Origin: a virus
DNA: 20,770 nt
Reading direction: 5' to 3' (one strand)
IMG/VR virus record: IMGVR_UViG_3300037094_000142
Location: 1-20,770 of that record
Part shown: piece after piece, positions 1 through 19,357 of the stretch
Layout: every line of letters starts with the position of its first letter
Position numbering within the stretch: the first letter of the stretch is position 1
Made by a program: the position numbers and the translations under genes
The notes under the pieces: generated by a model
What the model saw: only the letters and a program-made list of their open reading frames with translations
Told to the model about the DNA's origin: nothing
The model's database searches: none

Positions 1-629
1 TTTCCGTTTGGTTCGGAGCCATACACATATCCTATGCCAGGGGTCCAGACCGTGTACTGATAAGTGCTGCCATACCCTGCGGCCACGACCAGAGCATAGC
101 TGGCTGTGTCGTTGCCGTTGTTGTCTTTGCTGCGCTCAACAGAATAATAGACTGGTTGGGTGACACCAGTGGAGTTAGTGCGCCACAATAGCATGGAGAA
201 GTTGCTGCCTGAGGAGCCGTAGAACATCAGGTCATCAAGGTTGTTGGAAGCAGCTAGAGCAGAATTGACGTTGGAGGTTGCAACTGGCACCATTCTGCCT
301 GTGCTTCCGGTCAGTGTTCCGGCCCCGTTGGTGCCTGTCCCCACCGTCAAATATACGGTCCCATTGTAGTATGAGGAATTGTATGGCCCGTAATACTCAA
401 ACTTCACGTAGATAGGAAACGTAGATGACAGAGCATCGTTGGACTTGAAAATCTCGTACACATAGCCGTTAGGTCCCGGCAGAACTAAACTGCTCCAGTT
501 CACTTGCCCGGTATCAGTGGTCTGGACCCAGCCCGCCGCTATCATGAAAGGGTTTATCAGCCCAGCCCAGCTAGTGAATCCTGCGGCAGTGGTGCTGTTA
601 GAGCTACCACGATATAGATATTTCGCCAT
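1..629 (-). CDS. Probable tail fibre tip or receptor-binding protein, 3' end cut by window edge
   Basis: An open frame of 209 codons runs without a stop from an ATG at 629..627 to the window edge, so the C-terminus is missing. It starts MAKYLYRGSSNSTTAAGF and is rich in Ser, Thr, Gly, Asn and Tyr, with few charged residues, as expected of a beta-rich fibre domain. The pattern of an aromatic GW segment, then GYVYEIFKSND, then TVGTGTNGAGTLTG resembles proteins I recall from phage tail-fibre loci; this is recollection and not a database match. Its ATG shares one base with the TAA stop of the 1340-aa fibre upstream (TAATG), so translation is probably coupled. Last in the fibre series, it may be a receptor-binding or capping subunit. 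The open frame is certain; the function is inferred from context. Confidence 0.75.
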   Translation of the reverse strand, partial: MAKYLYRGSSNSTTAAGFTSWAGLINPFMIAAGWVQTTDTGQVNWSSLVLPGPNGYVYEIFKSNDALSSTFPIYVKFEYYGPYNSSYYNGTVYLTVGTGTNGAGTLTGSTGRMVPVATSNVNSALAASNNLDDLMFYGSSGSNFSMLLWRTNSTGVTQPVYYSVERSKDNNGNDTASYALVVAAGYGSTYQYTVWTPGIGYVYGSEPNG

Positions 630-3600
630 TACGCTTCCTCAACGTCGTAATTCAATGTCACACTAATCTGCGCGCTGCTGGTGTCCATGTTGGTGACGCT
701 GTAGGCGATAGCCCCGGTCGGCGGGTTGGCCGCGTCTCCACCAATCACAGCGGGACTGAGTACCCAGGTCAATCCTGTAGTGGAGGTTAGTACTAGATCC
801 AGAAGGACACCATGGGCCGTTCCTGCCGTGGGAGGTACAGTGGCCAGACGACCTGCGTCAGCAGCGCGAGCCGCAGCCGTCGAGTACAGGCGAAGGCGAC
901 AGGGGTTAGAGACCGTCACGCTGAAGAGGGTGAAGCCTTTCCCGATGAGCCATGTATAGGTGTTCTCGGTCGCGCGCGCTACCAGCGTCGCCGTCGTCTG
1001 AAAGACGGTCGAAATCCGGGATGGCGCCGCTCCACCACTTGCTACCGTGGCCGGTTCCCAATCGTTATTGGCTGCAACCCACTTGAGAAGTTGGCCATCC
1101 GAGGGCGCGGCGACTGCGACATTGTGACCCTGGATTTGTGTGGCGTTGCTCCCGCCCGCCACCGGGGCTTTGTTCTTCCACCTGCCGGAGGCGGCGTCAT
1201 AAACCAACATCTGACCATCGGCAGGAGAACTTATGGCAACATCAGTATCGGCGGCCAACGTGGAGGAGCCTGCTGTCGGGGTCTTGTTTTCCCATTTTCC
1301 GTCCGCCGCAACATAGGTAAGCACCTGATTGTCAGCAGGTGAAGCTAGGCTGACATCGGTATCCCCGGCCAACGTGGAAGATCCGCCGCCGGGTCCCCCT
1401 GTCGGGGCTTTAGGTTCCCAGTCTCCGCTGGCTGCCACGTAAGTCAGTACGTTTCCATCTACCGGAGCTGAAGCCGAGACAGGTTTCGTCTGCAATTTGG
1501 TAGCACTGATATCCAGGCCGGCGAGATCGGCAGCGATCAGAGCTGGAAGTTGTCCGTGGGGCAATGTTCCTGTAGTAATGTCCGAAGCCGAAACAACCAC
1601 ATCAGCCGACAGAGGATGTCCGTTGACTTTTGTGGAAGTGGGTACTTTGTTGCCGAGGTCAGTGACGAGATTCGTGACCCCTGATTCAGGGATGGCTGGT
1701 ATGTCTCCAGCCAGTAGTGCTGGTAACTGACCGTGAGGAAGCGTACCCGTTGTGATGTCCGAAGCAGATACAACTACATCAGCCGATAATGGATGCCCGT
1801 TTACCTTGGTGGTCGTCGGAACCTTGGAGGCAAGATCTGTCACCAGGTTCGTTACCTGTGATTCAGCAATAGCCGGAATGTCGGTGGCAACCAAAGCACG
1901 AAACGTCGGCAGCGCCGCACTGCCGCCGGTTGGCCCGCACCAAACCAGATTCGGGTTCTGGTTCTGCTTCGTGATGGCGATCGTACCCGAAGTCGTAATC
2001 GCAGCACTGACGGCAAATTCAACCGGTACCGAAACCGCTACCGATGTCACGGTTCCCACGCCGAGAGGCATATCGGCGGCGACCAACGCGCGGAAAGTCG
2101 GGAGAGCCGCCACGCCAGAGGTCGGACCGCACCACACGAAATTAGCACTCTGCGTCTGCTTTGTGATCGCGAGTGTTCCAGACGCGGTGATCGGCGAACC
2201 GGTTATCGCGAACTCGACCGGGACTGATGCCGCCACCGATGTCACCGTGCCGGACCCTGCGCCAGTGAGCAAACCCCTTACCGTGACATAGTTGACGGCG
2301 TCCTGATAGACCTCGGCTCCTTGGCCGGTGGAAACGACCAAAGTGGCATTGCCGTCGATGGTAGAAGTCGCCGGGGTGATGGTGACGGTCCCGGCTCCGA
2401 GATTAGAAACCGCGAAGTTAAACCCGGACGGCATGGTAGCCGCAGAAGGAAGGGACACGGCCACTGCCGCGGCATTCTTGAAGGTGATCAGCTTGCCGTT
2501 GTCGCTGGCCTGGATCGCGTAACTGGTTCCAACCTGGTTATTGACCCCAAAGGCCATATCCCCGGCGGCCAGTGAACGAAAAACTGGAGCGGCGGCCGCG
2601 CCCGAAACCGGGCCGGCCATGACTGTGTTGGCTGGCACCGTCAACGGTGGAAGCTGATATCCAGTCGAAGGCCATACTCCATTCACTACGGGACCATAGA
2701 GAATACTGGTCGTGGTGCAGAGATACCAGCTTCCGTCAGCAGCTCCGGCGGGAAGACTGTTCGACGCCTTAAAGGCCGCAGACACCATGGTGGAATACTG
2801 TGCATCGTTGCCGCCGAACGACACGGTGATAGGACCTGGAGTAGCCTTTAGGGCATACTCCAAACCTAGAGATCCACCTGTATTTGTCCCAGCCTGGATA
2901 TAGACTTGAGTGGTTACCACTGGCATCGTAAAGCCAGCACCTACGGTTGGCGTATCATCCCATTCAGCGCCGAATGTGAGCCCGATTACAAGATCGTTGA
3001 TGTAGGTTGTGGTTAGGTTGGCGGAGATGTAATTACCATAGGTGGAACCGACGTTGGTAACATCTACCACGCCGGCAGATCCTGCCACTTCCAGCGCCCC
3101 GACACCCTGTATTGGTCCTCCGCCTATAGACCAACCAGACGTAAGAGTACAGGCTCCGCTGGCAGCCGCGATACCTATCCAGAGGATGCAAGACTCATTT
3201 CCAGGGGTCGTGGAGACGACTTGACTGTAGTTTGTTCCAAGGTTGTCGTGCAGTGTCCAGGGTCGGTTACCCCACTGTGCACCGCCTACACCAACCTGGC
3301 CAACAATAATGAGATTGCCCTGCGTTACCGGGTTCGGTAAAGTATAGACACAGCTAGTCGCGGTGTAGAAAGTCCCCGAGGTGAGTCCGCTATTGGCTCC
3401 TCCACTTTGAATTACAGTCGGAGTCGGAACGGGTCCTGTATAGATCGAAGTCCCGCCGGACCCTCTAACCGTCGCGTAATTGATATTATCCTGATAGACT
3501 TCCGCACCCTGGAACTGTGACAGAACCAGCGTCGTCTTCGTGTCTATGGTACTGGTCGTCGGCGTAATCGTTACCTTGCCGGCGCCGAGGTTGGCCACCG

Positions 3601-4651
3601 CAAAGTTGAAACCTGCTGGGAATGTGGCGGCTGCGGGTAAGGTCACCGCGACGGCAGCGGCGTTGTTGAAGACGATCAGTTTGGAGTTGTCTGTGACCAG
3701 GACCGTGTAGGTCGTACCGGTCTGGTTATTCACGCCGAATGACATATCGGCGGGGGCCAGGACGCGAAAAATCGGAGTTGCTGCCACTGCGCCCGAGGCT
3801 GGACCTGCATAGATCTGATTGGGAGGTGCCGTAGTGGCGGCCAAGGCCGCGGCGGCCAGCGAACTGGACATAGCGCGCGCGGCGAGGTCGGTAGTCAGAT
3901 TGGTGACCTGGCTCTGAGCAATCTGCCCAGCCAGCTCCGATCCCGCTATAGTGATATTGCTCGATAAAGGATGTCCGTTTACCGTTACGGTGATACTTAC
4001 TTTACCGGCCAGATCCGCGATCAGATTCGCGATGTCGGCTTCAACCAGCGAGACAGCACCGACCTTTCCGGCAACACTCGTAACCGGCGTTGAGACGATT
4101 GCCGGTTTGTTCCACAGATCGTTGTAATCGCCGCTGGTAGCGACTCTTGCCAACGATGCTGCATTTGCTTTGGTTGCGAGATCAGCCGTCAGATTGGGGA
4201 TATCGGATTCAGCAAGAGTGACCGCGCCGATTTTCCCAGCGACACTCGTAACCGGTACTGATGGATACGTCGGCAACTGTGCCGCAGGCACTTTACCAGT
4301 ACCGTCGAGAGACGGATACCCATTCGGTTGACTCTTGTGGGCGCTCTTTTCAGTGGCAGCCAGGTCGGCAACAAGGCCGGAAACATCAGCTTCAGCCAAC
4401 GTCACTGCCCCGGTCTTACCCGCGACCGACGTGACTGCGTCGGACGAACCTGTTGCTTCCTCTCGCCAGATCCCATCTCCGTGCAGAACATGGGTCGCAT
4501 CTCCATCGAGGGAGATGACCCCGGGTTCATTTTCGGCAGCCGCCGGCACATGGCCGGAGACGTTGCGCGGAGTACTGGCGTCTTCCTGCCATTCAACGTT
4601 GCATGCGCCAGGAGGCGCGGGTGGCGTCGAGCTGTTCAGATCTTTAATCAT
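629..4651 (-). CDS. Giant modular tail fibre protein built from several families of repeats
   Basis: This 1340-aa protein is almost certainly a virion fibre that contacts the host surface. From the N-terminus: a Pro-rich head (1-50); three copies of a TSVAGKxGAVxL module (73-98, 133-158, 190-215); a 93-aa beta module (305-397); a separate domain at about 404-628; a second copy of the 93-aa module (701-793); two GTVTSVA...FRALVA modules (801-862, 866-926); two modules around VNGHPLSADVVVSASD (930-988, 989-1046); four repeats with a Gly-Gln-Leu-Tyr...Trp signature (1063-1203); and a unique C-terminal domain (1204-1340), a likely tip. Such TSVAGK and GQ-L-Y-W repeats are common in phage fibres. 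The ATG at 4651 lies 16 bases after the preceding stop and has no clear Shine-Dalgarno sequence, suggesting coupling. The exact receptor is unknown. Confidence 0.88.
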   Translation of the reverse strand: MIKDLNSSTPPAPPGACNVEWQEDASTPRNVSGHVPAAAENEPGVISLDGDATHVLHGDGIWREEATGSSDAVTSVAGKTGAVTLAEADVSGLVADLAATEKSAHKSQPNGYPSLDGTGKVPAAQLPTYPSVPVTSVAGKIGAVTLAESDIPNLTADLATKANAASLARVATSGDYNDLWNKPAIVSTPVTSVAGKVGAVSLVEADIANLIADLAGKVSITVTVNGHPLSSNITIAGSELAGQIAQSQVTNLTTDLAARAMSSSLAAAALAATTAPPNQIYAGPASGAVAATPIFRVLAPADMSFGVNNQTGTTYTVLVTDNSKLIVFNNAAAVAVTLPAAATFPAGFNFAVANLGAGKVTITPTTSTIDTKTTLVLSQFQGAEVYQDNINYATVRGSGGTSIYTGPVPTPTVIQSGGANSGLTSGTFYTATSCVYTLPNPVTQGNLIIVGQVGVGGAQWGNRPWTLHDNLGTNYSQVVSTTPGNESCILWIGIAAASGACTLTSGWSIGGGPIQGVGALEVAGSAGVVDVTNVGSTYGNYISANLTTTYINDLVIGLTFGAEWDDTPTVGAGFTMPVVTTQVYIQAGTNTGGSLGLEYALKATPGPITVSFGGNDAQYSTMVSAAFKASNSLPAGAADGSWYLCTTTSILYGPVVNGVWPSTGYQLPPLTVPANTVMAGPVSGAAAAPVFRSLAAGDMAFGVNNQVGTSYAIQASDNGKLITFKNAAAVAVSLPSAATMPSGFNFAVSNLGAGTVTITPATSTIDGNATLVVSTGQGAEVYQDAVNYVTVRGLLTGAGSGTVTSVAASVPVEFAITGSPITASGTLAITKQTQSANFVWCGPTSGVAALPTFRALVAADMPLGVGTVTSVAVSVPVEFAVSAAITTSGTIAITKQNQNPNLVWCGPTGGSAALPTFRALVATDIPAIAESQVTNLVTDLASKVPTTTKVNGHPLSADVVVSASDITTGTLPHGQLPALLAGDIPAIPESGVTNLVTDLGNKVPTSTKVNGHPLSADVVVSASDITTGTLPHGQLPALIAADLAGLDISATKLQTKPVSASAPVDGNVLTYVAASGDWEPKAPTGGPGGGSSTLAGDTDVSLASPADNQVLTYVAADGKWENKTPTAGSSTLAADTDVAISSPADGQMLVYDAASGRWKNKAPVAGGSNATQIQGHNVAVAAPSDGQLLKWVAANNDWEPATVASGGAAPSRISTVFQTTATLVARATENTYTWLIGKGFTLFSVTVSNPCRLRLYSTAAARAADAGRLATVPPTAGTAHGVLLDLVLTSTTGLTWVLSPAVIGGDAANPPTGAIAYSVTNMDTSSAQISVTLNYDVEEA
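1043..1465 (-). repeat. Four GQ-L-Y...W fibre repeats (type E)
   Basis: Four 21-residue repeats lie at 1403..1465, 1277..1339, 1163..1225 and 1043..1105, each of the form P-x-D-x-x-x-L-x-Y/W-x-A-A-x-x-x-W, followed by linkers rich in Gly, Ser and Thr. This signature is widespread in phage tail fibres just before the distal domain. Here it directly precedes the unique C-terminal domain at residues 1204-1340. Confidence 0.82.
1514..1864 (-). repeat. Pair of VNGHPLSADVV fibre modules (type D), recoded copies
   Basis: Two adjacent modules lie at 1688..1864 and 1514..1687. Across 32 consecutive residues (1715..1810 and 1538..1633) the proteins are identical, yet by hand count 21 of 32 codons differ synonymously. 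A related NGHPLSSNITIAGS segment occurs once earlier in the same fibre at about residues 225-238. The copies are thus conserved as protein but not as DNA. Confidence 0.88.
1874..2251 (-). repeat. Pair of GTVTSVA...FRALVA fibre modules (type C)
   Basis: Two successive modules of about 61 residues lie at 2066..2251 and 1874..2056. Both read GTVTSVA, then VPVEFA, TSGT/ASGT, AITKQ, VWCGPT and ALPTFRALVA. Each carries one conserved Cys in WCGPT. The linker ending FRxL is shared with the type B modules, which shows how the fibre was assembled from recurring parts. Confidence 0.82.
2273..2551 (-). repeat. 93-aa fibre module, copy 2 (type B)
   Basis: Residues 701-793 of the 1340-aa fibre, ungapped partner of the copy at 3461..3739. 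The two copies flank a separate domain of roughly 225 residues (about 2768..3442), so that domain sits between a matched pair of modules. Confidence 0.85.
3461..3739 (-). repeat. 93-aa fibre module, copy 1 (type B)
   Basis: Residues 305-397 of the 1340-aa fibre, from FGVNNQ to NYATVRG. By my hand alignment 67 of 93 residues match copy 2 at 2273..2551 with no gaps. Conserved blocks include NAAAVAV, GFNFAV, NLGAG and QGAEVYQD. Each copy is preceded by a short GPxSG...FRxLA linker. The pattern is that of an internal domain duplication in a trimeric beta fibre. Confidence 0.85.
4007..4435 (-). repeat. Three TSVAGK-type fibre modules (type A)
   Basis: Three copies of a 26-residue module lie at 4358..4435, 4178..4255 and 4007..4084, near the N-terminus of the 1340-aa fibre. 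Each has VTSVAGK, two variable positions, then AVxL, an acidic ExD, and LxADLA. Spacing between copies is irregular (about 57-60 residues), so these are dispersed modules and not a tandem array. Similar short modules occur in many phage fibres and may nucleate trimer formation; that role is inferred. Confidence 0.8.
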
Positions 4652-4667
4652 TAGGGATATGTCGAGA

Positions 4668-5336
4668 TTACGGGTTGCCGTTGACTAGGAGTTGATCGCC
4701 GTCCTGGCCTGGCGGACCAGCGGGTCCGGTGGGACCGGGCTCACCTGATCCTCCGGTGCCGTCGCTGTACGTCGGCCCGGTGACTTCGAGGAAGGGGGAA
4801 ATGACGATTGTCTGGGTCGCACCGACGATGACGATGTGGTACGTGCCGTACATGACTTCGATCTTGGATTGCCAGGTTCCGTTGGGATTAAGTCCCGTCT
4901 GTCCGAGGGAATACGAAACACTTTGATTGCCGTTCTGCCAGTCCTGAGAGTCGAACACGTACAGAACATATTTCTCGGGAGAAGTCACCTGGGTGATCTT
5001 GAGGGCGTTAGGGGCACCCTGATTCTCGTCGAGGATTACGATCTCGCCACTACCCGACGCTTGATCTACGGAAGTCTCGATCGTTTCGACGTCTTCGATG
5101 CGAGTATCGGTTCCTGAATCGTAGATCTCAATATAATCAGATCCCACGGCGCTCGGGGTATAACTGGCGAAGTAGCGCCCGGTACCCAGCTCGGAGATCA
5201 CCATAGTGTCTGCGCAGGTTAGGGTATTACGTGTGAAAATGACGGAGAAATCCGTCTGTACCCTACCGGTAACAGCAACCCCATTGGAGTCAGCAAGTCG
5301 GAAATAGATGTATCGAATTGTCCCAACCTGCGCCAA
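4668..5336 (-). CDS. Tail protein with Ig-like N-terminal domain and collagen-like C-terminal tip
   Basis: This 222-aa protein starts at a TTG (5336..5334); GAGG at 5346..5343, six bases upstream, supports it, and the next in-frame Met is residue 45. Residues 5-90 look like a beta-sandwich of the type in phage accessory tail proteins (YIYFRLADSNGVAVTG, later GTGRYFASYTP). Residues 98-185 form a second beta-rich region. Residues 198-215 are six Gly-X-Y triplets (GEP GPT GPA GPP GQD GDQ), a short collagen-like segment that favours trimers. It lies three bases after the coiled-coil membrane protein gene and 16 bases before the giant fibre. A fibre connector or accessory fibre is the best guess. 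The N-terminal plan resembles that of the 216-aa protein at 9638..10288, so the two may be distant paralogues. Confidence 0.8.
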   Translation of the reverse strand: MAQVGTIRYIYFRLADSNGVAVTGRVQTDFSVIFTRNTLTCADTMVISELGTGRYFASYTPSAVGSDYIEIYDSGTDTRIEDVETIETSVDQASGSGEIVILDENQGAPNALKITQVTSPEKYVLYVFDSQDWQNGNQSVSYSLGQTGLNPNGTWQSKIEVMYGTYHIVIVGATQTIVISPFLEVTGPTYSDGTGGSGEPGPTGPAGPPGQDGDQLLVNGNP

Positions 5337-5339
5337 GTC

Positions 5340-5690
5340 TTACCTCTTCTCCTGTAACTTATCAACTTTGTTTTCAATACGGTCCAGGCGGTGAACGAGA
5401 TCGTCCTTAAACTGATTGAATTGATCAACCGTCACCCGCTGCCTAGCAGCAGCCTCTTTGTCTCGAACGTCTTCTCGTTCATGTTCTTGCTGCATTACTT
5501 CATGCTGCGTTTGTCGTGTTTCCAAACCGCTCAAACGGACCTGCACCACGGATAAGGCCGTACCGCCAGTCAGAAGACCGATGACGATCCAGGCCAATAG
5601 TTTCTGTACCCATTCCGGAATCTTTTTGGCTGAAATCTCGGTAATGACTTCTTCTACTGGTAGGACAGATGGGGGAGTCAGGTTGGGCAT
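5340..5690 (-). CDS. Small protein with one membrane segment and a C-terminal coiled coil
   Basis: A 116-aa protein. Residues 28-49 (WVQKLLAWIVIGLLTGG and onward) form one clear membrane segment. Residues 52-116 are charged and helical with heptad character, ending LDRIENKVDKLQEKR, a probable coiled coil. The ATG at 5690 has AAGGA at 5703..5699, eight bases upstream. Helix-plus-coil proteins of this size in phages include holin-associated proteins and inner-membrane spanins. I saw no outer-membrane lipoprotein partner, and a spanin usually has a shorter N-terminus before the helix. It lies among fibre genes, not next to the peptidase, so a lysis role is only possible. It follows a 116-base gap containing a hairpin. 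Confidence 0.78.
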   Translation of the reverse strand: MPNLTPPSVLPVEEVITEISAKKIPEWVQKLLAWIVIGLLTGGTALSVVQVRLSGLETRQTQHEVMQQEHEREDVRDKEAAARQRVTVDQFNQFKDDLVHRLDRIENKVDKLQEKR

Positions 5691-5740
5691 GTTGGATGTC
5701 CTTGAGAGATGAATTGGCGCTACAGACTTGGGGCATACAG

Positions 5741-5764
5741 AAGAAATGGCGGGGTCGACCCGCC
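5741..5764 (-). terminator. Weak candidate intrinsic terminator or mRNA hairpin
   Basis: On the minus strand GGCGGG (5764..5759) pairs with CCCGCC (5753..5748) around a 5-base loop, followed by ATTTCTT. The stem is short and the T-tract broken, so termination would be weak at best. It sits in the 116-base gap between the 100-aa and 116-aa genes, the second longest gap in the window. Confidence 0.4.
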
Positions 5765-5806
5765 TCAGGATTGTTTAGTATAGGCTGCTGACCTCGGGAC
5801 AGGTTC

Positions 5807-6109
5807 TTACGACAACGCGCCGGGCGGCAACTTGCCGTCGGCTATCAACTTCTGAAATACGCGTTGGGTTATGTCGGTGGAAATCGTGTTCCAGAAATCG
5901 AGGGCGGTTGGATCTTGCTGATAATGGAGATTGACGTTGTACCCCGAGACGGGGTCAAGGAGGATCAACGTCAGAGTAGCCTTGCCTTCGTCGGCGAGGC
6001 AAGGACTGAAGTCCAAGAGAATCGACGCCAACTCCAATGAGTTGATCGTGAGGATCTTGCCACCAAAGGGATTGCCAATTACGACCGGCGGATTCAACAC
6101 ATATTGCAT
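5807..6109 (-). CDS. Hypothetical 100-aa protein between fibre genes
   Basis: I do not recognise this protein. It starts MQYVLNPPVVIGNPFGG, has no membrane segment or signal peptide, and a predicted mix of strand and helix (SLELASILLDF, ATLTLILLDPVSGYNVNLHY, DITQRVFQKLIADGKLPPG). Its ATG lies three bases after the TAA of the 1173-aa fibre, with only a G-rich stretch as a possible ribosome site, so it is probably translated by coupling. A small protein directly after a long fibre gene can be a fibre assembly chaperone or a minor tail component, but nothing in the sequence decides this. Confidence 0.7.
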   Translation of the reverse strand: MQYVLNPPVVIGNPFGGKILTINSLELASILLDFSPCLADEGKATLTLILLDPVSGYNVNLHYQQDPTALDFWNTISTDITQRVFQKLIADGKLPPGALS

Positions 6110-6112
6110 AAA

Positions 6113-9100
6113 TTACCCCAGTTCGACGATTTGTACCATGCGATTGCTGATTTGGAGATTGGCGCCAGTCACCCCGGGGAAGTAGGCGCAGTTCACGTTG
6201 TAGTTATGGAGGCCGGCAGTTAGTCCGAAGGCCGGAGCATCGAGGGCAGTGAGTGTACAGTGCGTGAAAGACTGAGTATCATAACTGCTAACTCCAACTG
6301 TAGAGATAGCGAGGGTTGTTCCAAATGTCGAGCTTGGCACCATATCCCTTTGCAGTTCAAAGGCTGCACTGGGTGAAATGAGAGCATGGGCTATACCAGT
6401 GAGCGCCACATCGAAGTTGATGATGATAAGGAGGGGGTTAGCCCCGGTCACTGTGATGGATGGGTTAACGTAGGCAAGCCAACCACCGCCGGACGCAGCC
6501 GAGAAAACCTGCGCAGCATAGAATCCAGCATCCGTTCCCTGCCACAGGACATTCTTGAGTTTGATGTTGCCGTTGGTGTCAATTGCCTGAATCAATCCAG
6601 AACTGCTGTAAAGTTGGCCCTTCATCGTCAGATTGCCGCTGGCATCCGCAAGTAAAGCTGGACTGCCAGATGTACCGCCCACGCCTGCGGTTTTGAACCA
6701 CGCTCCTCCTGCACCGCCAATGAACCCAATTAGATTTCCGGCTCCGTCGTACACAGAGAACTGACCGGGTTTCCCGCCACCGCCCCCGACGCTGATGCCG
6801 GCCGTGGCTAGGGCGTTTGTTGTTACAGCTCCGGCGGCAATCTGTCCGGCGATAATCTGGTCAGCCAACTGAGTCGTGGAAATAGCTTCCCGACTCCAGG
6901 TGTTACCATCCGAAACATACAAACCCTTCAGAGTGCTTCCGACATTCTGGTTCAGATAAACAAACTTGCCTGCGGCATAGACCGGGACTGGTAGAGCTGC
7001 CACGACCGTCACTAAGCCGAGTGCGCTGGTGGCGGTCGCCTGTGCGGCTGTGGCATTGGCAGCAGCGGTCGCGGCGGCGGCGTTGGCAGTATCTGCGGTA
7101 GTCTGGGCAGTTTGTACAGCCGTTGCGGTACCGATGTTCTTATCGTTTGTATTTAACGATGTGACCGTCGCTGACGTTGCCAGGAATACCGGATTCCCTC
7201 CGCTATCCACGGCAGCGTTGCCGAAACGATCGCGCGGCCGGAGGCCGTACTGGACTTGCAGGTGTTCATTTTCATTTGGTATGTCATCTGACCAGTGATT
7301 CGCTTTTCCGTCTTTGTGCCCTGGGATCTCGACGACTTTTACGAAAGCAGGATCGGCGACGAACCCCGGCGCGTCCGAGGCGAGACGCTGGCGCCAGATC
7401 TCATACACGCAATTGACGTATGCAGGGTCGGTCCCGTTTACCCAATTGAGATCGAAATAACCCCATTGACCGGTGGCCTGAAACTGAGAGGTATATACTG
7501 GCGGCGCGGCCGTGTCGCTGGCGTTGAGCCAGACTGTCTTTCCGTCACCATAGGGCGTGACGCGCGGACCTTCCTCGAACTGGATGTCATCCCATAAGGC
7601 AGTTGCATTCCGATTGACCGAGTCGGAGATCAGTACGAGCTTTGCTGATACCGCAAATGCCGGTGGAAGCAGAGCAGTGTTCGTCCACTGTTGGTAGGCC
7701 ACCCCGAGTGCCAGGGGCGTGCCCGAGCTTACAGAGATCTCGGACCCATTCGCCGCTAACCAGTGGACCTCGATCAAGCAGGAGAGCCCTGTGGTTACGT
7801 CCTGGGCGCAGTAACCGCTTACGGAATACAAGGTGCCTTGCGATACCGGTACGGTCTGGGTCATTCCTGTATTGGCGGAAGCGCGTACAGCCTGTCCGGA
7901 TGTGTTCCTGCCGGGTGTCACGTACGTTGGCGCGTTACTGAAGCCCCAGGTCTCCAACGTGAAACTCGGATCGTCCAGCAGGTTGGCGCCACTGACGTTC
8001 TGACTGTTGTCGAGCGTCCGGACCCGGAAACGATACTGAACCTGGTCGAAGTTGTAGGGGTCTAACCCCGTCGCCGAGAACTGCTTCGGCCCTGGCGAAC
8101 TGTCTTGGATGGTCTGGATCTGCTCCCAGTCCAAACCGCCGGTCTCCAACTCCTCGACGATGTACCCGTAGAGATCACTGATGGTCGGAGCCAGCCAGGA
8201 AATCGTGATCGAACCGTCATTATTGATGACAGGCGTTGAAAGCGCGGGCGCAGGAGGAACGCTGTTGTCGGCGGCCCTGTAGCCGGCTAACTGGGGAAAC
8301 TGGGCTGGACCACTGGAGACAAACGTTGATTCGTTGTTCGAGGCATCGACCGCAGCAATCTCGACTTCGAATAACCCGGAAAGCGAATCGCGTGACGGAA
8401 CCAATCCGGTTGTCGGATCGATGAGCCCGTGAATAGTGTATGAAGTCCCTTCGACAAGAATCCCGGCATTGAACGTGGAATACGCCCCGATCTGGGCATA
8501 GCGCCACTGAACCAGGTAAAACTGAGTGGAAGGGTCAGGCGAAGCCTGCCACGTCACCTGTATGCATCCCAGTTGACCGAGGTATTGGATCGAATTCGGG
8601 ATCGGTAGCGGGGGAGTGGTGTCGTTCGCGGTGGCCGTGACTTGGCCGGCGGCGTCAAAGACGCTCTCAGTATTGTTGGCATCGACGGCCGAGGCAGAAT
8701 ACGCGTACTCACTGCCATTCACCGTGTCCAGATCGACGTAGGAAAATGATGATCCTGCGACCAGGGGAACGACTGTATCGAGGAGCAGCCAGCTTCCACC
8801 TGTGCGCTTGCGCCAGATATTGTAGTGCTTCAGGTTCGAATCGACCGGTGTCTCAAAACTGAAAGTAATCGTGCCGTCAGTATTCGCAACTGCGGTTGCC
8901 CCGGTCAGAGAGATTGCAGGCGGCGGAGTTTGAGACCCACTGGCACTCAAAGTGGTAGGACCGACAACAGCAGAGTCCTGAGTATTACCCGAGACGTCTT
9001 TTGCGCGCAGGAAATAATAGTACGCGCCGTCACTGGGAAGCGACTGATCCACGTACTGAGCCCCGTTGAAATGGGCACAAGGAAGTAAAGTCGGTTCGCT

Positions 9101-14155: not shown

Positions 14156-15493
14156 TTACGGAGTGACCACGAAACCGGCTGGCGTGAATTCGCCACGGTC
14201 TGCGTTGACATCGATAGGTGTAGCACCGACCAGGTTGAGCGCCGACTCGTACAGAGTGTTGTCGGCACCGATCGAAACGATCGGACGCGCTTCGGGGTAC
14301 ATCGCGTTTGCACGCACCTTTACGTTACGAGCCACGGCGATTGCCTGCCCTTCATTCAGCACACCGAAACCGTATCGCTCTTCAATCGCGATGTTCTCGA
14401 TGTTGTACTGGGGATCGTCCCAGCTACGAACCTGAGGCCGCTGATCCACGATCAACGCGCCGAGGTTGCGGCTATTGAACATGATGATGTCCGTCTCTTT
14501 GGTCGTGGTATCGAACCGCAAGAACGGAGAGACCAGGATGCGCAGGTTGCCGAAGTTGGCGTAGCCGGGAATCTGGAACGCCGAGGTTGCATTCTGCGGA
14601 AGCGACTCGGGGCCTGTGATGTTGCCCTGCGTCTGGCCAAGGCCCTGGCCGAGTCCCTTGTTGTTGTAGAAGCCCTGGTACGCCTGGGCCGCTGCGTTGC
14701 CGGTGAACTGCGCGAAGAAACTTCCGCCGCCAGCTTCGCGGGCAAATTCCCTCATCACAGGATCACGCATGAAGGACATCCACAGGAGCGGGTGAACCAA
14801 CATGGTGTCGGGGATGAATCCCTGCATCAACACCTGAGCGAACATCGTGAACAGATCGTCCGCTGTAAAGCTGCCGTTGTACTGGCCCTGCGCGGTGCGG
14901 CCGGTGGTGGCGCCGTACATCGGCTTCGTGCCGACATAACCGGTGGTGCGGACAGCGGTGTTGTTATCGAAAACTACCGTGCCCAGGCTGCGGATGAAGC
15001 TAAAAATGTACTCTTCCTTGTGCCGCGCCAAAGCGTTTCCAGCCAGTCGCAACCACATTTGCAGCCAGGGATACGTGCTGTTCTGGATGAAAGATTCAGT
15101 GATGCGAAGCTGCAAGCCGTGCCGTTTGACCTGCACTCCGTAGGTGTTGCCGCCGCCGACGTTGATGTTGAAGATCGGAAGCGCCGCACCATCGCCAACT
15201 TCGCGGGCGGTCAGAATATCGAACGCCGGGAAGACGGTGTGCATACCGGGCGTGTAGTCAATCTCCTGGAGGAGACTGGTGCCGATCAACAGCGGCTCTA
15301 CGCCTTCCTGCACGATCTGGGTCAAGACCCTCGGGATCAGGAACGCAGCCTGCGGGATGTCGAGGGCATCCTTCATGCTGAGTGTACGTTCCGACTCGGG
15401 ATCGAAACCATTGCAGCGGAAGATCGACTCGACGCGGGCTAGATCTTTCTTTACGACCTTGTCCTGGAAGTCGATAGTCTTACGAGTGGACAT
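14156..15493 (-). CDS. Major capsid protein, HK97-like fold
   Basis: A 445-aa protein that should form the icosahedral shell. After a charged N-terminal helix (VVKKDLARVESIFRC) comes a typical run: DIPQAAFLIPRVLTQIVQEG, FPAFDILTAREVGDGAALP (likely E-loop), ITESFIQNSTYPWLQMWL (spine-helix region) with NALARHKEEYIFSFI, then an A-domain-like stretch with MLVHPLLWMSFMRDP and GNLRILVSPF. This order matches HK97-fold capsids. I chose the ATG at 15493, with AGGAGG nine bases upstream, over a TTG at 15520 that lies before that ribosome site. It follows protease, head protein and zinc ribbon genes and is followed by a strong terminator. No cleavage site is evident, though the preceding gene is a head protease. 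Confidence 0.87.
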   Translation of the reverse strand: MSTRKTIDFQDKVVKKDLARVESIFRCNGFDPESERTLSMKDALDIPQAAFLIPRVLTQIVQEGVEPLLIGTSLLQEIDYTPGMHTVFPAFDILTAREVGDGAALPIFNINVGGGNTYGVQVKRHGLQLRITESFIQNSTYPWLQMWLRLAGNALARHKEEYIFSFIRSLGTVVFDNNTAVRTTGYVGTKPMYGATTGRTAQGQYNGSFTADDLFTMFAQVLMQGFIPDTMLVHPLLWMSFMRDPVMREFAREAGGGSFFAQFTGNAAAQAYQGFYNNKGLGQGLGQTQGNITGPESLPQNATSAFQIPGYANFGNLRILVSPFLRFDTTTKETDIIMFNSRNLGALIVDQRPQVRSWDDPQYNIENIAIEERYGFGVLNEGQAIAVARNVKVRANAMYPEARPIVSIGADNTLYESALNLVGATPIDVNADRGEFTPAGFVVTP

Positions 15494-15502
15494 TGAACTA
15501 AC

Positions 15503-15508
15503 CCTCCT
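15503..15508 (-). promoter_or_regulatory. Strong ribosome binding site of the capsid gene
   Basis: A full AGGAGG on the minus strand, nine bases before the ATG at 15493. It fits high expression and fixes the capsid start nine codons downstream of the in-frame TTG. Confidence 0.8.
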
Positions 15509-15584
15509 CGGGTTTGGCAAAGTGGCGAGGGACCGTGTGAATGCGGGCTCGTTGGAATGAAATGGAGAGACTGGAGAAACTCGG

Positions 15585-15794
15585 TTAGGCGCGAGGTGTT
15601 ACCAGCTCGACGACAATCTGTTGGCCGCAGCGTTTGCACTTCAGGTCGCCGGCTACTTGACCAAGTGGATTGAGCTTCAGGAGAAGCGCATTACAGACCC
15701 GGGCTTGGTTGTTCTGAAGCCGGGTATTGGCGCATCGGAGGCCGCCGTCTGTGACGACGGCCTTACCGTGAGTGATGTTCAGGGGGAGCTTCAT
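15585..15794 (-). CDS. Small Com-like zinc ribbon protein
   Basis: A 69-aa protein with Cys21, Cys34, Cys53 and Cys56. The stretch VCNALLLKL...GDLKCKRCGQQIVVEL recalls the Com family of phage Mu (RC-x2-C-x-K-L-L-x-K ... I-x-C-P-R-C), zinc-binding regulators that bind nucleic acid; in Mu, Com activates mom translation. The second CxxC is intact, while the first pair is spread (C-x12-C), so metal binding may be altered. I chose the ATG at 15794 because it lies 22 bases after the stop of the 403-aa gene; a longer frame to 16040 only runs through that gene. It sits directly before the capsid gene. Function here is unknown; regulation of capsid translation or a structural zinc protein are possibilities. 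Confidence 0.72.
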   Translation of the reverse strand: MKLPLNITHGKAVVTDGGLRCANTRLQNNQARVCNALLLKLNPLGQVAGDLKCKRCGQQIVVELVTPRA

Positions 15795-15816
15795 CTGGAG
15801 CTTCCACCGGCTGGGA

Positions 15817-17028
15817 TTACCGGCAGTTGACGTGAACGAGAACGTAAGTCGCGTACTCGTTATGGACTGGCTTCTGCTGTCCGAGGGCCAGTTGGAACAA
15901 GCCATTCGTGGTGATCGAGATGGCGTAATCCATACCCTTGGTGGCCGAGCCGCCCATCTGGAAGGTGACGGGGTTGGGGTCCATGCGGGGACCGACGAAT
16001 TCGGTCGCGCGCTCGTACTGGGTACGGACGCGGTTCGCATAGTCGATAATCGGGTACATCAGTTCGACACCCATCACTCGACCGCAGATATCGTCTGCTT
16101 CGTTGACGGCCGGATCGTACGGAGCGTAATGACCCGCATCGGAACCGTTGCTCTTGGTGTTGGGAACGACAGCGCAACCCAGGTAGAAGGTGCCTTTGAC
16201 GTTGCCCTGCGCGCCGGTGAAGTGGACGAAACTGCGGCTGTAATCGGTCTGGACGTATCCGAGTACGCCATCAGTCGCAGCCAATGACGTCAACGTGCTC
16301 GGGGTTGCACCGATCCAGGGGAGGCGCAGCACGAAGCGGGTCTGAATACAGGTACCCATTTCATGCATGTAATTCGTGACCTGCATCTGGTCCGGACGCT
16401 GCGTGAGCAGGAGATACTTGATGCCGCCGGCCAACGTCGGATCGGTGATCTGAATTCCGCCGATGTACACAAAGACATCGCGAACTGCGAAGCCCACGGC
16501 CTTTGCTTTGCCGCCAGGGATCAGGGTGCAAGCATGCGCCCAGGTAACGTCGCCCGCCGAGATCGTAACCACGATGCCGTCAGGCAGAGTGACTTGATCG
16601 CCAGCGACGCCATCGGTCGGAGCAGCAAGAACTACGTGCTCGCCTGCGGCCTGAACTTTGAGACCGGTCTGAGGATTGGTGACGGTGCCCACATCGTACT
16701 GGGAGTACACGATCACGCAGTACTGACCGCCATTGGCTTTCGTACCCATATCGCCGCAGGTGTAACCGGCGGGAATCAGTGCGCCGCTCTTGTCGACGCC
16801 GATGAGGTAACCCTCGCTCAGGACGACACCGGCTGCTACCGGGTGACCTTCGGCGCGACGCCGAATCGGCAACCAGGCGGCCGGATAAGGAACCGGCATG
16901 AAGGGACGGAACTCATCGCAAGCATCGGGCGAAGGGGTAGTGTGACCCCTACGGTCAACGCCATAAGTCGTGCCGCGAAAGTCGTTGAACTGGTCGAAAC
17001 CAGGAACAGTAGTGAAACCTGAGGACAT
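15817..17028 (-). CDS. Putative head-associated structural protein
   Basis: A 403-aa protein, unrecognised by family. It is beta-rich and has the style of phage head decoration or auxiliary capsid proteins: FMPVPYPAAWLPIRRRAEGHPV, a GVVLSEGYLIGVDKSGALIPAG segment (a small beta-barrel-like hairpin), YDVGTVTNP, LPDGIVVTISAG, FVYIGGIQI, and a long C-terminal part with conserved-looking aromatic motifs (GVELMYPIIDYANRVRTQYE). It contains seven Cys, none in a recognisable metal motif. The ATG at 17028 has AGGAGA upstream. It lies between the protease/scaffold and the capsid genes, the usual place of decoration proteins, but at 403 aa is longer than most. A second capsid-like or vertex protein is an alternative. 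Confidence 0.75.
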   Translation of the reverse strand: MSSGFTTVPGFDQFNDFRGTTYGVDRRGHTTPSPDACDEFRPFMPVPYPAAWLPIRRRAEGHPVAAGVVLSEGYLIGVDKSGALIPAGYTCGDMGTKANGGQYCVIVYSQYDVGTVTNPQTGLKVQAAGEHVVLAAPTDGVAGDQVTLPDGIVVTISAGDVTWAHACTLIPGGKAKAVGFAVRDVFVYIGGIQITDPTLAGGIKYLLLTQRPDQMQVTNYMHEMGTCIQTRFVLRLPWIGATPSTLTSLAATDGVLGYVQTDYSRSFVHFTGAQGNVKGTFYLGCAVVPNTKSNGSDAGHYAPYDPAVNEADDICGRVMGVELMYPIIDYANRVRTQYERATEFVGPRMDPNPVTFQMGGSATKGMDYAISITTNGLFQLALGQQKPVHNEYATYVLVHVNCR

Positions 17029-17068: not shown

Positions 17069-19357
17069 TTACTCAGTTGCTTTCTTGAACCGCTGGCGGG
17101 CCGCATGACGTCTGGATTCTGCGGGGTCCATGACTGGGAACTTCACTGGGATCTCGATCGCGTCTGTATTCTCGACCGTCGTACCTGCGCCTTTGGCGGC
17201 GTCGTCAGTGCCGGCCTTGGGAGCCGGGTCAGTCACCTGCGCGCTGTCGGATACCTCAAGCCCGGTAGGTTCGGTGACCTTGGCGGCCGAGGCTGCTCCT
17301 GCGGGCTTTGCCCACTGAAGCTCTTCCAGGATCTCGTCGCGCATATCGGTCAGGCTGGAAAGATCCCGTCCCGCGCGCTTCGCGATCGCTTCACTGATCT
17401 GGTCGGTGGTCAGGCCTTGGAAGCCTTTTGCACCTGACAGAACTTTATGCAGAACGATCATCGTTGCCAAAGTGTCCTTGCACTGTTTCAGGATCTTCAG
17501 CTTCGAGTTCTCTTCCGCGACGACTGCGTCTCGCAATTCCTTCTCAGTCGCGTCGAACTTCGTGATCGCGTCGGTCAAGGTATCGTGTTCCGACTTCGCG
17601 ATGACCATTACGGAATCTTCATCCTTGGTCAGCCAGCGCATGTAATCGTCATGCTCTTCACGGCTGTACCAGGAACTGATCAGGGAACCGAGTGCCCAGC
17701 GGAGATGACGCTTGCGATCGTCGGGCAGGGCTGCATACTGGGTGTCCAGCGTGTTGACCGTCCCACGTACTTCTTCGTGCGCGTCTTTGCACTGCTCCAT
17801 CTCGAAGACCTTCTTCACGGCATCGGACATGACCAGGCCGTCTGCGTTATCGAGGGTGCAGCCATCCTTGCCGACGCATCCCAGGGATTTACCCTTGCGG
17901 TCGAGACAACCTTTGATCTTTGCTTTGGTCGCGGCGGAGACACTGGCCCGACCCAACAGCCGTTTTCCGGCGGTAACATGGGCGCAGTCTTCGGCGGGGA
18001 AACTACGGTTGGGGCCACAGAAGCTGGTGCCCTTCAATTTCTTCCGCGCTTCGGAACTCAACTTTGCGTCTGTCATCTGGGCATCGGTCAGGACGCCTTC
18101 GGTCTTCATCGCGTCCAATTCAACTGCCAGATCCGCGTACAGTTCGTCTTCTGTTCTGGAGAAGAAAGCCTTATCCAGGTCATCGGTCAGCGCGTCAGTC
18201 CAGTCACAGGCACCATCGGCGCAATCTGTGGTGTCGGATGTAGATGTAGGCAACACGGTTTTGGCAACTGCGGCGTCAGCGGCGGCGATCTCACTATCAG
18301 CCTTCTGACTGTCAACACTGCGGACGGGAATTACTTCCCAGTCATTTGCCTTGATCTTGGCCACAACGGTCGAGAGGAGTTTCTTGGTCTGTTTCTTGCC
18401 GGCATCGGTGTCGGCTGAGTAATCGGTGAGTTCCTTGCGAATCGCCAGGGCGCGTTCCGATGTAAGGCCCGCGGACTTGATCTCGTCGGATATTGCTTTC
18501 AGGTCGATCATCTCAACTTTGTCCTCAACTCTTTCAATGTCCGCGCTGTAAAGCGCGTCGGTCAGTACCAGGCCAGCGGCGGTGGTGCGCTCTGTCTGTT
18601 CGCGAAGCGGCAAGCCAAGGAGAAATGCACGGTGGCGGCTATCGGTCAGTCGTTCGATACTCAAGGTGGTGGCGAACGGATCGGCTGGCTGATTCACAAA
18701 ACTGCATTCGTGGAAGTCCATCGAACCGGAAATCACGAAAGCCAGTTTGCCGTCGTACTTCTTGCCGAGCTGATGATCGCAACGATCATCGACGGCCCAA
18801 TCCTGATGGCATACTGAACAAACTGCGGAGTCGGTTCCGAAACCCACCGAGACGGTCAGGAACTCTTTGCGGAGAACCTTGTCGATGGCGTCAGGCTCGG
18901 TAATCTTCAAGCCCAACTCGATGTACCCGAGTCCCCGGTAATCTTTCTGGGAACAGAGGTTCTCGACGATCCAATCAACCGTCTCCAACGTGCTCATCCG
19001 CTTCTTAGCGTCCGAACAGTAGAAGACCGAGTCGTTCAGAATGGGATAGTCGGCCTTGTACAGGTACGACAGATCCACATACTTTGCTTCCAGCACGCGA
19101 CCCAGCGGATCAGCTTCTTCATCGTGGTGAGGAAGTACCGGACGCGGGTAACAACTCATGTCCACCCAGGTCGGCGTTCCTGTCATCATCTTGTCGGGGC
19201 GGTAGAACCGCATGTTCCCGTTGATGATTCCGCTGTGCGTAGCGGCTACCCGCACCAGAAGGCTTTGGGTAAGACCTTGTTCGTCGTAACTGATAAGCCG
19301 CTTGTCGGCTGTCCTGAGGTCCAGTGTCAGGAAGTCCCGCATGTACAGGCGAGGCAT
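17069..19357 (-). CDS. Head maturation protease fused to a scaffold-like C-terminal region
   Basis: A 762-aa protein. Residues 1-235 resemble phage prohead proteases: PVLPHHDEEADPLGRV with candidate catalytic His77/His78, FLTVSVGFG with candidate Ser170, a Cys cluster C180-x2-C183-x9-C193-x-H195, then DFHECSFVNQPADPFA. These enzymes cleave scaffold and capsid proteins during head maturation. Residues 275-420 are helical and charged. Residues 442-495 hold SFCGPNRSFPAEDCAHV...C...LGC, a small Cys-containing domain I recall from phage head proteins. Residues 505-685 are helical and probably coiled; 685-762 is disordered and acidic, then basic at the end. Protease-scaffold fusions are known in phages. 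The ATG at 19357 has only a weak upstream site. It lies between portal and capsid genes as expected. Confidence 0.84.
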   Translation of the reverse strand: MPRLYMRDFLTLDLRTADKRLISYDEQGLTQSLLVRVAATHSGIINGNMRFYRPDKMMTGTPTWVDMSCYPRPVLPHHDEEADPLGRVLEAKYVDLSYLYKADYPILNDSVFYCSDAKKRMSTLETVDWIVENLCSQKDYRGLGYIELGLKITEPDAIDKVLRKEFLTVSVGFGTDSAVCSVCHQDWAVDDRCDHQLGKKYDGKLAFVISGSMDFHECSFVNQPADPFATTLSIERLTDSRHRAFLLGLPLREQTERTTAAGLVLTDALYSADIERVEDKVEMIDLKAISDEIKSAGLTSERALAIRKELTDYSADTDAGKKQTKKLLSTVVAKIKANDWEVIPVRSVDSQKADSEIAAADAAVAKTVLPTSTSDTTDCADGACDWTDALTDDLDKAFFSRTEDELYADLAVELDAMKTEGVLTDAQMTDAKLSSEARKKLKGTSFCGPNRSFPAEDCAHVTAGKRLLGRASVSAATKAKIKGCLDRKGKSLGCVGKDGCTLDNADGLVMSDAVKKVFEMEQCKDAHEEVRGTVNTLDTQYAALPDDRKRHLRWALGSLISSWYSREEHDDYMRWLTKDEDSVMVIAKSEHDTLTDAITKFDATEKELRDAVVAEENSKLKILKQCKDTLATMIVLHKVLSGAKGFQGLTTDQISEAIAKRAGRDLSSLTDMRDEILEELQWAKPAGAASAAKVTEPTGLEVSDSAQVTDPAPKAGTDDAAKGAGTTVENTDAIEIPVKFPVMDPAESRRHAARQRFKKATE

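Follow-up and report, generated by a model that had tools for sequence, protein, structure and literature searches.

A gene for a probable Com-like zinc ribbon, adjoining the major capsid protein gene of large phages from one environmental lineage, and a hairpin at the capsid Shine-Dalgarno sequence

The stretch of DNA analysed here (the window) is a virus record of 20,770 bases, in which an unbroken open frame on the minus strand at 15585..15794 encodes a 69-residue protein, a putative Com-like zinc ribbon here called ComL, with the translation MKLPLNITHGKAVVTDGGLRCANTRLQNNQARVCNALLLKLNPLGQVAGDLKCKRCGQQIVVELVTPRA. The putative zinc ligands are C21, C34, C53 and C56; the translation thus confirmed the wide first cysteine pair (C-x12-C) described in the initial annotation and gave C-x2-C for the second. 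ComL is flanked upstream by a head-region gene (15817..17028, minus strand, 403 aa) and downstream, across a gap of 91 nt, by the major capsid protein (MCP) gene (14156..15493, minus strand, 445 aa), as that annotation had also placed it. The MCP was identified by matches to PF25209 (E 2.5e-10) and to the major head protein phrog_3922 (E 2.2e-23), and is 27-33% identical to the MCPs of the large cultivated phages ME3, KLEB27-3 and MTATph1. The 403-aa protein is a conserved neighbour with homologues upstream of ComL in relatives, variable in length (384 to 657 aa for complete ORFs, loci L005-L068), for which no significant family match was obtained in Pfam or PHROGs and the AlphaFold2 model was poor (pLDDT 50). 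Elsewhere in the window, a 762-aa protein (17069..19357, minus strand), possibly a fused protease, weakly matches a head maturation protease (phrog_18299, E 1.4e-5), its cysteine-bearing part matching phrog_16160 (E 1.2e-5), and a large repetitive protein of 1340 aa (629..5336, minus strand) has a tail-fibre match (phrog_23008, E 6e-10); ahead of the latter lies a 222-aa protein that ends in collagen-like Gly-Pro sequence.

For the survey of gene neighbourhoods, 64 related loci were gathered by MCP sequence alone, and the search for a ComL frame within them demanded the cysteines. A four-cysteine homologue was found upstream of the MCP gene in 62 of the 64, immediately before it in 60 and with an ORF in between in two (L016 and L018), so that the pairing of a Com-like gene with the capsid gene envisaged in the initial annotation proved to be conserved. 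The two loci without ComL were L058, the contig of which begins at the MCP gene, and L007, in which the 131-nt gap upstream of the MCP gene contains no ComL-like gene; since only these two were missed and the L007 gap is empty, a homologue lacking the cysteines was not overlooked in the 64-locus set. Many of the 64 loci are near-identical, and together with loci from later scans they provide 36 non-identical leaders. Across 27 aligned members the four cysteines, on whose conservation the annotation had hinged, are all invariant, as are G10, L19, R20 and G49. The spacing C-x10-12-C-x18-C-x2/4-C holds in 27/27, with a motif that opens LRC and a second knuckle of C-x2-C in 19 members and C-x4-C in eight. 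The distance from ComL to the MCP gene is 33-91 nt, or 355 or 520 nt where an ORF is inserted.

Reverse scans with three ComL sub-alignments returned 66 further loci on contigs that overlap the first set and one another, 62 of them with an MCP gene. Three of those without (L114, L129 and L135) stop at or soon after ComL, and L112 is a true exception, with ComL near terminase genes and an MCP of this kind absent from the 10 kb seen. The L112 stretch (3470-8525) belongs to a different phage type and carries an HNH gene, then ComL, then a region with the terminase small and large subunits. One copy of ComL was present in each of the nine matching records among 13 searched. The capsid region of ME3, KLEB27-3 and MTATph1 likewise encodes a homologous MCP, preceded by a portal gene and one or two more, but ComL was not found in these three genomes; nor was it found in the 30.5-kb record of L007. 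A tblastn search of cultivated phages with three ComL members gave no match or weak ones only (35 records, best listed E 0.6), including matches in phiEco32 and in Burkholderia and Rhodobacter phages, of which the phiEco32 match was dropped because the annotated protein there has no such motif. Scans of genome contigs, among the family searches for ComL, returned no relative, and a description of such a gene was not found in the literature by title or abstract. ComL is a genuine and conserved gene, its tie to the MCP gene is clear, and it is carried in one lineage of large environmental phages.

The closest ComL pairs shown have dN/dS values of 0.06 to 0.2, and over 30 unsaturated pairs the median is 0.35 and the maximum 0.77, the window's own pairs being near saturation. 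Endonuclease genes adjoin ComL at some loci: Pfam identified an endonuclease VII gene in L017 (4283-4825) and an HNH gene in L112 (3470-3805), and endonuclease-like genes were recognised by eye only in L016 (4458-4907) and L108 (6205-6559). The ORFs between ComL and the MCP gene in L016 and L108 look similar, by eye, to one another and to enzymes of the HNH type, a reading that Pfam did not confirm for the L016 ORF. In the gap that follows ComL in L016, a segment similar to the normal ComL end (IEVEIAVRS) can still be read, as might result from insertion of a mobile gene into the 3' part of the ComL gene. Such neighbours would be expected if ComL were passenger DNA spreading with endonuclease genes and had no role peculiar to capsid expression. 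This is very improbable in our view, as nothing is inserted between ComL and the MCP gene in 60/62 loci, close ComL pairs are under purifying selection and a single loss is seen among the 29 rows of the ComL group in the MCP tree described below.

The relation of ComL to Com was assessed with single sequences and with profiles. The window ComL alone matches Com weakly (phrog_13819 gpCom, E 0.11); it has no match to Pfam Com (PF10122) at E<=10 and no significant family in Pfam, PHROGs or NCBIfam. PF10122 matches 2/27 members at E<=1 (best E 0.018), short of the Pfam gathering score for Com of 22.9 bits, whereas six true Coms reach 36.8 to 81.5 bits (all at E 2.7e-9 or below), and for several other ribbon families in Pfam the match to ComL equals or surpasses that of Com. 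The PHROG most often matched is phrog_13819 gpCom (15/27 members, best E 0.001). In an hhalign comparison that covered Com among the zinc-ribbon families, the ComL and Com alignments (five or six Com proteins) were matched with a probability of 93-94, against a maximum of 47.8 for 60 shuffled Com profiles in which the cysteine columns were kept, and the aligned part comprises C-N-K-L-L ... C-x-R-C. Com of Mu and its relatives (PF10122, phrog_13819) and ComL have in common the four-cysteine ribbon and the letters R-C ... C-N-[KR]-L ... C-x-R-C; both are small phage proteins encoded immediately upstream of a gene that they possibly control, and in both cases the downstream start region sits in RNA structure. 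The main difference is the first knuckle, which is C-x2-C in Com and C-x10-12-C in ComL, with eight to ten residues inserted; the middle spacing is x16 in Mu Com and x18 in ComL, and ComL has an N-terminal strand region in place of the long C-terminal tail of Com. The gene downstream of ComL is that of the MCP and does not overlap it, whereas com precedes a DNA-modification gene. In the six phages examined com overlaps the next gene, which is a modification gene in Mu, B3, Chuche, Phipami28 and JD024 and is unnamed in Mcat3. Because partner gene, knuckle and tail all differ, ComL was not filed as a Com. The likeness to Com proposed in the initial annotation therefore stands as a profile similarity well above shuffles, but not as strict PF10122 membership, which is not supported: two of 27 members match, the first knuckle has been enlarged, and ComL is not followed by a gene for DNA modification. 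To judge from sequence comparison above cysteine-preserving shuffles, ComL most likely shares ancestry with the phage Com family.

The AlphaFold2 model of ComL is all-beta and confident (mean pLDDT 89). A Foldseek search with it gave nothing significant (best E 1.9 in the PDB and 1.5 in viral models), and VIA-align reported one row, 4c2m_I, which is a subunit of RNA polymerase I (Z 2.0, rmsd 1.9 over 33 residues). Its zinc ribbon and ComL may have a common geometry over those 33 residues, but sequence gives no support and the Z value lies only at the reporting threshold. RNA polymerase subunit P in NCBIfam matches 6/27 members (best E 0.0047), which was judged to be chance, as were matches to enolase among PDB sequences (best E 0.022). 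Taken with L112, in which ComL has no adjoining MCP gene, these weak polymerase-ribbon hints would suit a nucleic-acid-binding regulator that acts elsewhere, either as a late-operon transcription factor or antiterminator or on its own message, its place beside the MCP gene being inherited gene order. We regard this explanation as unlikely, as the polymerase-subunit matches are at or near noise and it would leave unexplained the covarying hairpin in the MCP leader.

That leader, from the ComL stop to the MCP start, comprises 91 nt (15494..15584, minus strand). In the fold of the identical leader of L002, the MCP Shine-Dalgarno (SD) sequence AGGAGG (15503..15508) lies within the loop and 3' arm of a hairpin, AACCC-GAGGA-GGGUU (15500..15514). 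No Rfam match was obtained for 15400..15900 up to E 1. Other leaders have hairpins of different sequence: AACCCU-UAGG-AGGGUU in L066, CGCCU-UAGG-AGGCG in L050, UGCCU-UAGG-AGGCA in L042, AUACCC-AGGA-GGGUAU in L010 and AACUC-UCAAG-GAGUU in L029. When hairpin arms were swapped among 29 leader clusters, the mean score fell from 10.79 (native) to 7.27 (swapped, sd 0.65), and none of 5000 permutations scored as high as the native arrangement. Covariation was assessed in hairpins cut by hand from 20 leaders that had loop lengths of 4 or 5, ten in each of two alignments, and excluding leaders without a good hairpin or with other loop lengths; the first alignment kept a misaligned row (L010) and the second had nine distinct rows. 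Cells in which both partners of a pair had changed numbered 11 against 5.1 in shuffles in the first alignment and 10 against 4.3 in the second; for this count and for the covariation score 0/500 shuffles were as high in each alignment, and all slid versions were exceeded too. Two further measures were weaker, namely pairs with both-sided change (reached by 7/500 shuffles in the first alignment and 101/500 in the second) and further pair types (175/500 and 492/500, respectively).

Strong SD hairpins occur in a fraction of 0.57 of 42 MCP leaders as against 0.11 of 297 other leaders at the same loci, a comparison that includes some miscalled starts and three cultivated phages without ComL, and, for the upstream gene, in 0.05 of 42 leaders. 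Seven of the 29 ComL leader clusters score under 10, and the hairpin is significant against shuffles of its own 5' arm in only 4/29. Whole leaders are barely more stable than shuffles (mean z -0.50, 29 leaders). RNAalifold predicted zero pairs on the MAFFT alignment of the leaders, for which reason the covariance model R1 contained no base pair and was not used. A second hairpin further upstream in MCP leaders (p<0.05 in 6/27) is no more than suggestive. In L010, a leader called non-MCP has a near-identical SD hairpin, GGCCCTAGGAGGGTC, before another gene start and is a possible second target.

In the published account of Mu (PMC6483171), Com is described as activating translation and as binding a hairpin of mom mRNA that adjoins the translation inhibition structure, and its selected RNA motif, CC(N)2-3GAG, is placed in the loop of a hairpin. 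This motif is fitted by CCGAGGAG in the window hairpin. The motif is commoner before MCP genes (13/42) than before other genes (36/297), but as a mark of every MCP leader it fails; since only 13/36 ComL leaders fit it and it is present in ComL-less L007 too, the motif was not counted as evidence for a common target.

A wider MCP scan was taken to the best 80 of 522 relatives, with 39 new contigs examined, and the counts for the sister lineage given here refer to that sample. It yielded a sister lineage of 38 loci with MCPs 38-43% identical, and ComL was not found in the stretches available of these loci (best profile E 0.55); in 38/38 the MCP gene is preceded, at a distance of 10-51 nt, by an ORF of 328-474 aa. 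For the hairpin contrast, 32/38 sister loci were used (six identical leaders were dropped), giving 30 clusters, and a score of 10 or more was counted as a hairpin. By this measure the SD hairpin is present in 22/29 ComL clusters and in 3/30 sister clusters among the best 80 of 522 relatives (Fisher 2.4e-7), and in leaders with AGGAGG only, in 16/16 with ComL and 3/22 in the sister lineage. The arm-swap comparison was null in the sister lineage, at 3.90 against 3.79. Among the four ComL-less relatives outside it, three score as hairpin-bearing: L007, which at 75% MCP identity is the nearest distinct relative, has kept the SD hairpin with a score of 12, ME3 scores 12 (A-U stem) and MTATph1 scores 10, with KLEB27-3 at 7. 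In an MCP tree with 15 of the 38 sister rows chosen by hand from the best 80 of 522 relatives, and with the short L054 dropped, 28 ComL rows cluster with L007 in a single group (SH-aLRT 100). Within this group the largest subgroup has a strong hairpin in 16/17 rows, and the hairpin of several others is weak. A single gain with a single loss suffices for the history of ComL over these 29 rows; because one gain suffices, the contrast between lineages comes close to a single comparison and may reflect one evolutionary event. The RNA structure suspected at 15494..15584 was thus found as an SD hairpin with compensatory changes across relatives that is rare in the ComL-less sister lineage (best 80 of 522 relatives). 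The accompanying idea of the initial annotation, that ComL controls translation of the capsid mRNA, thereby gains indirect support from the covarying hairpin; binding and the direction of any effect we infer.

ComL is basic in 27/27 members, with a net charge of +4 to +7. Pairing with the anti-SD sequence averages -4.6 kcal/mol at ComL starts (27 genes), the start codons of which were the analyst's choice, as against -9.1 kcal/mol for MCP (29 leaders), and in pairs from the same genome MCP pairs more strongly in 22/22. Weak initiation fits a protein required in small amounts, with which a minor virion protein is also compatible. The initial annotation had raised the alternative of a virion component, and a zinc ribbon of the virion or its assembly that cements or chaperones the capsid, with the SD hairpin as a separate, ComL-independent feature, would account for the strict linkage of ComL to the MCP gene, for its place among head genes and for the hairpins that exist without ComL in L007, ME3 and MTATph1. 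The weak initiation and basic charge make this alternative less likely, as they suit a regulator better than a shell protein, and the profile affinity of ComL is to a translational regulator. In addition, ComL was not found in the available stretches of the 38 sister loci (best 80 of 522 relatives), which have homologous MCPs, so that it is probably not generally required for such capsids. Overall we consider a virion or assembly role improbable.

The homology, the charge, the initiation strength and the covarying SD hairpin frequent in the ComL lineage together point to ComL as a zinc ribbon, related to Com, that binds RNA and adjusts MCP translation by way of the leader hairpin, a reading drawn from sequence comparison to which we give somewhat less than an even chance. 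On this proposal ComL, a small basic four-cysteine zinc ribbon of Com ancestry in which the first zinc knuckle was expanded, would have been gained once, beside the MCP gene, within a single large-phage lineage. It would bind zinc and the leader of the MCP message, and its binding would alter the access of ribosomes to the MCP SD sequence, held in a short hairpin in most members. Opening of the hairpin would amount to activation and would set the time or level of capsid synthesis; to judge by the precedent of Com, activation of this kind is perhaps somewhat likelier than repression. More tentatively, and as a possibility we rate below an even chance by a clear distance, the pair could constitute a dedicated protein-RNA switch for the MCP in a lineage of dsDNA phages, in which a Com-type ribbon with a reshaped first knuckle opens or closes an SD hairpin and so sets the timing and amount of capsid.

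To our knowledge, the means by which large phages adjust the amount of capsid relative to other head proteins are mostly unexplained. If the proposal is true, a type of control known from Com in the mom DNA-modification operon would have been reused for virion assembly, and these phages would carry, adjoining the MCP gene, a regulator that consists of one gene, has an RNA target of its own and is directly testable by a reporter.
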